Origin: Fidelibacterota bacterium
GTDB taxonomy: Bacteria; Fidelibacterota; Marinisomatia; Marinisomatales; UBA1611
Length of the DNA stretch: 53,147 nt
Direction: 5' to 3'
Assembly (NCBI GenBank): GCA_002718655.1
Contig: PBFM01000041.1
Location: 1 to 53,147, forward strand
The translations under genes were made by a program, and so were the position numbers. The notes beneath the pieces are model-generated. The model did no database searches. It worked only from the letters and a program-made list of their open reading frames with translations, and had not been told where the DNA came from. Below are positions 5,758-12,577 of the stretch, piece by piece. Positions within the stretch are counted from its first letter, which is position 1, and each line of letters begins with the position of its first letter.

Positions 5758-7095
5758 TTAATTTTCTTTTATTCCAACCCATACATATTGATCAATAACT
5801 TGAGTTGGATATACTTCAATGTTTGTTGGGTCGGTATCTAAAACACCTTCTGCCTGCTTATTAGATTTAAGAAATATTTTGGTCATAAACTTTTCAGCAC
5901 TACTTAGCGCTAACCAAGTTTTAACGTCACCAGTTTTATAACAAAAAGTAGTATTGTGCCAAGCACAATTTATTGTTCCTTCCCTTATGTCAACACCACC
6001 ACCTTTCAATGAAAGGTTCATATGTGGACATTTTTCATTCATTCCATAAAATTTATCATCAGCTTTTACTATTAATATTGTTTCTTTATTAAATTTAAAT
6101 ACCTGCTGCTCATTTGATTCAAAAGAATCTACACTCCCACATTTATTCCAATTATATCCATCTTCAAACTTTTGATTATCTTTTAACTGCTTTAACTCAT
6201 TTCTTAGATGAATTTGCTCTACTTCATGAAGCGTTACCCGGCCATCAATTCCCTTGACCATGGTACGCATGAAGTCTTTTACAACCAACAAATCTTTAAC
6301 TTCTTGATAAACTTCATCAGAAATTAAGACCCTCGATTTAAATTGTTTATTTGCGCTCTCAACTCTACTTGCAAAATTCATTGAATCGCCAATCGCAGTA
6401 TATTTCTTTGACTGTCCAGCACCGATGTCCCCAACAACAGCTTCACCCCAATGGACACCTACTCCTATATCAAAATCTTTCCCGTACATTGTCTTTAAAT
6501 AGGGTTTCATATCATCCATTTCATCTATCATTTCAAGCGCAGCTTTTACGGCATACTCTGCTGGATTTTTCTCATCATTCATACCAAAAATGGCAACCAT
6601 TCCATCACCAATATAATTATCGACATGTCCATTGTTTTTTTCTACAACACCAACCATTCTTTTAAAATATCTATTAAGAATAAATACAACATCATAGGGA
6701 GTTAGTTTTTCAGAAAAAGGAGTAAAACCTCTTATGTCACTAAAAATAATTGCTATCTTTTTTGATTCTCCTTGCCTATCAAAAGACATATGCTGTATAT
6801 CATCAGAATCAAGAACCAAACGCCTAGCTGTTATGTCACCATTGATTGAAGTTTGACAGGCTAACCTAAAACCTGTTGTGGTGTGAGCTCGGTCAATTAA
6901 AGCCTTCTCAATCTCTGTTTCATTTGAACAATTTTCTATACCCTCTAAAATTAAAAGCCGACACGTTGTGCATTTACCCTCACCACCACATGCAGCAACG
7001 TGGGGTATCTTATTCCGTTTAGCGACCTCCAATATTGTCAGATTATCTGGTGCTTCACATATTTTATTATCAGGTAGAAAAGTTATTTTTGACAT
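5758..7095 (-). CDS. Ferredoxin - class III nucleotidyl cyclase - Rieske fusion protein
   Basis: Three domains are visible in 445 residues. Residues 1-95 are a [2Fe-2S] ferredoxin with Cys36, Cys42, Cys45 and Cys80 (CGGEGKCTTC). Residues ~110-290 are a class III adenylate/guanylate cyclase: metal-binding Asp120 (FSDIRGFTPF) and Asp164 (YIGDGMVAIFG), plus Asn240 and Arg244 (IGDSMNFASR) for the transition state. The usual substrate-selecting Lys is Asn160 and its partner is Thr233. Residues ~310-445 are a Rieske domain with CPH (356-358) and CAWH (377-380). There is no membrane segment, so it is cytoplasmic. Ferredoxin-cyclase fusions are known; the added Rieske domain suggests cyclic-nucleotide output gated by redox state or electron flow (inference). 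It overlaps the upstream VOC gene by 26 nt. Confidence 0.93.
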   Translation of the reverse strand: MSKITFLPDNKICEAPDNLTILEVAKRNKIPHVAACGGEGKCTTCRLLILEGIENCSNETEIEKALIDRAHTTTGFRLACQTSINGDITARRLVLDSDDIQHMSFDRQGESKKIAIIFSDIRGFTPFSEKLTPYDVVFILNRYFKRMVGVVEKNNGHVDNYIGDGMVAIFGMNDEKNPAEYAVKAALEMIDEMDDMKPYLKTMYGKDFDIGVGVHWGEAVVGDIGAGQSKKYTAIGDSMNFASRVESANKQFKSRVLISDEVYQEVKDLLVVKDFMRTMVKGIDGRVTLHEVEQIHLRNELKQLKDNQKFEDGYNWNKCGSVDSFESNEQQVFKFNKETILIVKADDKFYGMNEKCPHMNLSLKGGGVDIREGTINCAWHNTTFCYKTGDVKTWLALSSAEKFMTKIFLKSNKQAEGVLDTDPTNIEVYPTQVIDQYVWVGIKEN

Positions 7096-11797: not shown

Positions 11798-12577
11798 TCA
11801 ATTGATTAGCAACATTTTTTTCATAGATTTGCTTTTCCCTACTTGTAAATGATAAATATATACTCCAGATGAAACAGTTTGGTCAAATTCATCTTTCCCA
11901 TTCCACTGAACCGAATTTTGACCAGCGACTTGATGAGAATCCAATAATAATCTGATGCTCCTTCCTAGAACGTCATAAATATTAATTTTTACCTCCGAAT
12001 CTTCAAAAAGGTCAAACCTGATCCAAGTCTTAGGATTAAAAGGATTAGGATAATTTTGATATAACTTAAAGACATTTGGATTAATCTCAACATCTATTGC
12101 GACACTTTCTTGTGTTAAATTTAAAACTATCTGCTCAAGGTCATCAGGCAAACCAATCGATACGTTTTGATGGAGAATCAGGTTCCCAGAAAAATCAAGA
12201 ACAAATAAATCTCTTTGCGAGGCATCCCAATTGGTCCAAACCGTAAATGGTGATTCATCTGCACAAACTGGAGAATTGTTTTCATCGGTCCAATTCTGTG
12301 AATGCGTCAAGTGTGTATTTTTGCCGATGCCGATTAATTCTACCGGTATATCTTGAGATTTTAAATTTTCATATAATTCATTTAATTGTTCGAACCGAGC
12401 AGTGCAAATGCCTCATGTAAAATGTCCAAAATAGTGAAGAGTAACTTTCTGTTCAAAAAGTGAGGTGCCAACATTACTATCATAATATTCAGAGGAAGGG
12501 TTTATATCTAATAATGAATAATCATATTGCCCAATTAATAAGGATTGTATAATAAAGATAAATATAAAAAATCTCAT
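11798..12577 (-). CDS. Secreted selenoprotein candidate: SelenoP-N/thioredoxin-like domain with in-frame TGA (Sec55) plus T9SS tail
   Basis: An ATG at 12577 opens a frame of 260 codons interrupted only by TGA at codon 55 (12415-12413). The predicted product begins with a signal peptide (MRFFIFIFIIQSLLIGQ). A thioredoxin-like domain follows in which the TGA reads U in FGHFTUGICTARF, the first position of a UxxC redox motif with Cys58. Downstream residues (YENLKSQ, IGIG, VWTNWDAS, FVLDFSGNL, SIGLP) parallel the N-terminal domain of animal selenoprotein P, which also has UxxC. The C-terminal ~90 residues are a T9SS/FlgD tail (YQNYPNPFNP, SGVYIYHLQVG). TGA ends other genes here, so it is not a general sense codon. 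The alternative is a nonsense pseudogene, but the coding frame is intact on both sides. Expected role: secreted thiol/selenol oxidoreductase. Confidence 0.8.
12379..12410 (-). promoter_or_regulatory. Candidate bacterial SECIS element just after the in-frame TGA
   Basis: On the minus strand, directly after the TGA, CATTT (12410-12406) can pair with AAATG (12383-12379). An inner TCG-GTT-CGA hairpin (12398-12390) puts a GGU in or next to the apical loop, about 20 nt from the TGA. That is near the spacing of the SelB-binding loop in E. coli fdhF. The pairing was done by eye and the inner stem is short, so this supports the selenoprotein reading without proving it. Confidence 0.4.

Follow-up and report, generated by a model that had tools for sequence, protein, structure and literature searches.

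A gene on the minus strand of the window (the whole stretch of 53,147 nucleotides analysed here) appears to encode an exported selenoprotein, in which an in-frame UGA would be read as selenocysteine (Sec) by means of SelB and a hairpin, and which would take the type IX secretion system (T9SS) route to work as a UxxC redoxin at the cell surface. This reading as a whole is given a probability of about 0.85. The gene is taken to be that of a genuine selenoprotein whose domain family is known and whose T9SS-exported architecture is seemingly undescribed. Its features are the following.

11798..12577, minus strand: selenoprotein gene, 259 residues, predicted Sec at 55; the final stop is the TGA at 11800-11798
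12413..12415, minus strand: codon 55, an in-frame TGA in a UGIC motif, very probably Sec; TGA at 37/37 distinct homologous sites
12386..12402, minus strand: predicted SECIS hairpin of bacterial type, from covariation, with GGUUC (12396-12392) as its loop, 16 nt downstream of the UGA
12530..12577, minus strand: putative signal peptide MRFFIFIFIIQSLLIG, recognised by eye, with probable cleavage before Q17; the hydrophobic start is kept in orthologues
12158..12523, minus strand: predicted thioredoxin-fold redoxin domain, the NF053656 region (residues 19-140), from NCBIfam, AlphaFold2 and Foldseek
11810..12052, minus strand: T9SS type A C-terminal sorting domain (residues 176-256), from TIGR04183 and PF18962

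Read from 12577 to 11798, the frame runs from an ATG through 54 codons to a TGA at 12415-12413, continues for 204 codons and then ends at the TGA stop. The internal TGA is the only stop within the 259-residue open reading frame and occupies the first position of the CxxC-like motif UGIC. The first-pass annotation, which gave no strand for the gene, had described a single in-frame TGA at this place with the frame open on both sides of it, and reading of the minus strand bears out both points; at the given base composition, 204 codons would stay open by chance with a probability of about 1e-7. The encoded protein begins with a hydrophobic stretch, continues in a compact domain and closes with a sorting tail at its C-terminus. 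An ordinary listing of open reading frames begins the gene after the internal TGA, and the present analysis corrects this annotation. The TGA at codon 55 very probably specifies an active-site Sec in a redox protein.

Among the 40 nearest relatives, the TGA at codon 55 is kept in 10 genomes, at protein identities of 42-67%. A profile of the domain found matches in 39 of 130 genomes of the order, and all matches covering the site have TGA there. Across the phylum the same profile gave more than 100 matches in 69 of 245 genomes; wherever a match scoring above 45 bits extends over the site, TGA is again present, and the matches without it either are fragments beginning downstream of the site or are weak, scoring no more than 38 bits. 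A separate collection, made up of records labelled as Candidatus Neomarinimicrobiota / Marinimicrobia or simply as marine bacteria, has TGA in all. The first-pass annotation had proposed looking for homologues with Cys at this position and had asked whether all homologues end there. No Cys form was found among the good phylum matches (above 45 bits and covering the site, 245 genomes), and the homologues continue past the TGA. Between the window's gene and seven orthologues, synonymous change is near saturation (pS 0.57-0.87), with nonsynonymous change at pN 0.12-0.29 before the TGA and 0.20-0.38 after it, and purifying selection is indicated on the protein on both sides. A TGA kept through near-saturated synonymous change in a constrained protein is neither an error nor the mark of a pseudogene. 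A sequencing or assembly error behind the TGA, or decay of the gene into a pseudogene, might be suspected from a MAG that is 80% complete and in which selD and tRNA-Sec were not found. The chance of this is negligible: it is ruled out by the same TGA throughout the phylum, in genomes from about 30 genera that were assembled independently of one another, by the purifying selection on both sides, and by a covarying hairpin that follows the codon.

This hairpin, directly after the TGA, is identified from sequence covariation as a bacterial SECIS, an element for which the first-pass annotation had proposed a search of positions 12415-12370. Counted from the U of UGA, positions 14-19 pair with positions 25-30 around the loop GGUUC. 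In 35 distinct sequences, 82.4% of the cells are paired vs 58.6% in shuffles, the cells with both sides changed number 64 vs 24.6 in shuffles, and the covariation score is 0.596 vs 0.214. The signal is lost in register-shifted versions, none of which comes near the true register, and RNAalifold recovers the same helix independently. Folding of single SECIS regions often preferred other structures, and covariation was the decisive test; an Rfam scan of the selenoprotein gene gave nothing above chance. Codon choice in the loop is also skewed, Arg being CGG in 30 of 37 homologues compared with 3.5% of the window's Arg codons, and Phe being TTC in 31 of 37 compared with 24% of the window's Phe codons, a comparison that is rough because the relatives differ from the window in composition.

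According to the published bSECIS model, G stands in the first two loop positions, the loop has 3-9 nt, the stem 4-16 bp and the spacing 16-37 nt, and the energy is -7.5 kcal/mol or lower (PMC13188914). The family consensus fits the constraints on loop, stem and spacing: its loop is GGUUC, its stem, in which compensatory changes occur, reaches 6 bp, and its spacing is 16 nt. A C-A mismatch interrupts the stem of the window's hairpin, whose energy of -5.2 kcal/mol falls short of the model's -7.5; many homologues lie at -8 to -15 kcal/mol. In the proposed mechanism, SelB with Sec-tRNA(UCA) would bind this hairpin and the UGA at codon 55 would be translated as Sec, as conservation and covariation suggest.

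A genome without Sec machinery would have spoken against a selenoprotein, as the first-pass annotation pointed out in proposing a search for selA, selB, selC and selD. The search recovered selA and selB side by side in the window's genome (G000:C17), with SelA at 501 bits and SelB at 314 bits, so that the machinery is not wholly absent. The search found neither selD nor tRNA-Sec in the window's assembly, which is 80% complete; for tRNA-Sec, it applied the Rfam model under both strict and more lenient filtering, as well as a sequence pattern taken from the relatives. The best matches in the tRNA-Sec search were tRNA-Leu and tRNA-Met in the window's genome and tRNA-Ser in other genomes. SelD is present, with a Sec codon, in the congeners G001 and G002. 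Over 41 genomes, SelB exceeds the cut-off in 37 and SelD in 33; 32 of the 33 SelD matches have a Sec TGA of their own, and the remaining one begins after the site. A true tRNA-Sec(UCA) occurs in many relatives, and six genes were confirmed to have the anticodon UCA. It was not found in any of the three members of the window's genus, and none was recognisable in the searched genomes of three genera, g1, g3 and g10 (G000-G002, G004, G014, G011, G020 and G125), where selenoprotein genes or selB are present despite this. Because tRNA-Sec often lies at contig ends in relatives, assembly breaks may explain its absence from these three genera, or the tRNA there may be divergent.

The three genera, which carry the gene while tRNA-Sec was not found in them, could also be cited for a UGA that is read as Cys, Trp or Arg, through a suppressor tRNA or a changed code, and not as Sec. 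Such decoding is very improbable, since the selenoprotein gene itself terminates at TGA, SelA and SelB are present together with a SECIS-type hairpin, the site holds a UxxC redox motif, and related genera combine the same gene with a true tRNA-Sec. Insertion of Sec remains the preferred reading of the codon.

The domain around the motif was compared with protein families and structures. The domain matches one family better than any other, NF053656 of NCBIfam release 20.0 (June 2026; redoxin_TUGYCR, 'TUGYCR motif thioredoxin fold (seleno)protein'), with an E value of 6.7e-28 and 97.4 bits against a cut-off of 100 bits. An orthologue in G021 scores 109.5 bits with this model and a paralogue in the window's own genome 144.4 bits. 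The Pfam models AhpC-TSA, Redoxin and Thioredoxin_8 all matched below their cut-offs. The AlphaFold2 model of the domain (pLDDT 94.6, pTM 0.89) has a helix at 40-58 after U39, with the active-site pair at the start of this first long helix. Foldseek with this model gave DsbE/ResA as best (E 1e-8), then peroxiredoxins, glutathione peroxidases and Sco proteins. Across 30 homologues, the aligned domain never varies at U/C39, C42 and R106. By these models, the domain is predicted to be a thioredoxin-fold redoxin of the TlpA/Prx type. The mature part of the protein would consist of this one redoxin-type domain with UxxC as the active site; from fold and motif, the selenol would attack a disulfide or a peroxide and Cys58 would resolve the bond. 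A cell-surface thiol-disulfide or peroxide reductase is the most likely function that the modelled domain suggests.

A third Cys, Cys105 in PVCADES (window 12265-12263), is conserved in the T9SS-tailed subfamily; the other subfamily is without it, and it may take part in the redox cycle. The paralogue already mentioned is a second selenoprotein of the family in the window's genome (L100, G000:C32:10640-11050); it has 509 aa with Sec at 59, and its Sec domain is followed by a repeat region resembling a right-handed beta-helix and then by a T9SS-like tail. There is also a subfamily with two in-frame TGAs (L093 4001-4417 and downstream, L120; the f16 rows of the phylum search), in which the members inspected have UAGU, with Sec in both motif positions, and adjoin a UxxC member.

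Comparison of the neighbourhood with those of relatives found no constant redox partner among the neighbouring genes. The neighbourhood is partly common within the genus only, where it includes a threonine/serine dehydratase and another T9SS protein. Elsewhere in the window (5758-7095, minus strand), a 445-aa protein has, by eye, an apparent ferredoxin-like 2Fe-2S start, a guanylate/adenylate cyclase and a Rieske-like end, and its neighbourhood is kept in G002.

The first-pass annotation had likened the domain to that of selenoprotein P, and this part of it does not hold. The SelP_N profile (PF04592) gives no match for the window's protein, and of 30 relatives only 4 match it, weakly, with E no better than 0.015. 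NF053656 is far better, and AhpC-TSA, Thioredoxin_8, Redoxin and SCO1 of Pfam outscore SelP_N, as do TlpA-type models. Membership in the SelenoP family was rejected on the profile results, and kinship to it is, as judged from sequence, weak. True homology of this bacterial domain to the N-terminal part of animal selenoprotein P, with a shared role in selenium storage or delivery, would agree with the weak matches, with UxxC and one Sec in a secreted thioredoxin-fold domain, and with the low similarity to pfam04592 that the 2008 Global Ocean Sampling (GOS) survey notes in describing the marine family Prx-like 2 (PMC2398784). This is nevertheless improbable in view of the profile scores and of the single Sec; the protein lacks the Sec-rich tail, so that no storage function is visible. 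A redoxin with Sec in its active site is the better description.

Export is the other half of the main reading. The signal peptide claimed by the first-pass annotation can be seen by eye as a hydrophobic start (MRFFIFIFIIQSLLIG|Q) that orthologues keep, and it would direct the protein to the periplasm. The T9SS tail, claimed likewise, is over both cut-offs (TIGR04183, 36.4 bits vs 23; PF18962, 37 bits vs 27), and the window's genome has SprA as a 2104-aa open frame over its cut-off (G000:C59). SprA is over the cut-off in 37 of 41 genomes, and tails of this type are common to dozens of matches per genome. The homologues end in T9SS tails, some of them beyond long extra domains. From the type A tail and SprA, the protein would pass through the type IX secretion system and be released or anchored on the outer surface.

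Some homologues differ in their ends. L092, L093, L097 and L098 have, instead of the T9SS tail, GDVNxDGxxNVxDVVxxVNxIL repeats that look dockerin/EF-hand-like by eye. The short homologues L074, L078, L069 and L080 have, also by eye, lipoprotein-like starts (e.g. LLVVFGC, LLTFVAC), which suggests that the same Sec domain is also membrane anchored. With T9SS tails, dockerin-like ends and lipoprotein-like starts among the homologues, export seems to be general, by different routes.

The selenoprotein might be real and yet not be exported by T9SS, if its tail were a generic Ig-like (FlgD-like) domain and the protein stayed in the periplasm or outer membrane. FlgD_ig does match the C-terminal tail as well, and the lipoprotein-like and dockerin-like homologues would fit such a view. 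It is considered unlikely, given that the tail exceeds the TIGR04183 and PF18962 cut-offs, that SprA is present in this genome and in most of the others, and that the same tail recurs so often in each genome. Type IX secretion of the window's selenoprotein to the cell surface is the probable outcome.

A marine selenoprotein family named Prx-like 2 was published by Zhang and Gladyshev in 2008 from the GOS survey (PMC2398784). In the survey's description, Prx-like 2 has UxxC and UxxU forms, a low similarity to pfam04592, a marine preference and fusions to other domains, and Cys homologues were counted; it had at that time no strong homologue in any sequenced prokaryotic genome (PMC2398784). The NF053656-type family of the window is probably the same as GOS Prx-like 2, the match being one of published description and not of sequences. 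The first-pass statement that no bacterial T9SS-secreted selenoprotein of this kind is known to have been described thus stands in part. The selenoprotein family is not new, since the domain is named in NCBIfam and, probably as Prx-like 2, appeared in print in 2008 (PMC2398784). A T9SS-exported selenoprotein was not found in the literature searched, which comprised openly licensed papers; two of these mention both selenoproteins and type IX secretion and, by their titles, concern other subjects. Among the few openly licensed papers that mention both selenoproteins and the phylum Neomarinimicrobiota, judged by title and abstract, no report of selenoproteins of this phylum was found either.

A broader proposal is that Neomarinimicrobiota have a phylum-wide, exported, Sec-only redox family, displayed on the cell by means of type IX tails or, in relatives, of lipid anchors, with a divergent tRNA-Sec in the genera without a recognisable one. 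It is put forward tentatively, its likelihood being somewhat below even. The Neomarinimicrobiota (SAR406) are widespread and uncultured. If the proposal is true, these ocean bacteria would have a selenium-dependent redox system at the cell surface, and a Sec-only surface enzyme would link their outer-surface chemistry to seawater selenium. The gene also offers a likely genomic home for the Prx-like 2 reads of the 2008 ocean survey (PMC2398784).

Among known systems, Prx-like 2 as described in the survey shares with the window's family the UxxC and UxxU forms, low SelP_N similarity, marine origin and fusions; it differs in its counted Cys homologues, of which the window's family has shown none, and the description of it considered here leaves export unmentioned (PMC2398784). 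Selenoprotein P also places UxxC in a secreted thioredoxin-fold domain (PF04592), whereas the window's protein is without a Sec-rich C-terminal part and has a predicted bacterial SECIS inside its coding region. NF053656 is alike over residues 19-140 and has Sec in its motif, but the window's motif is TUGICT and not TUGYCR, and the window's protein adds a T9SS tail and falls in a separate subfamily with the extra conserved Cys. Among proteins of known structure, ResA, DsbE and TlpA come closest in both fold and sequence (TM about 0.7-0.77, E 1e-8), at 14-19% identity; the window's protein differs from them in having Sec for the first Cys and a different C-terminal sorting, and it has an Arg aligned with the cis-Pro of ResA. 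Peroxiredoxins (AhpC-TSA) are among the next best families and folds, at 22.9 bits against a Pfam cut-off of 26, and have TxxC in place of UxxC. In the window's family an invariant Arg precedes the F-[IV]-[IL]-D strand, a feature shared with peroxiredoxins.
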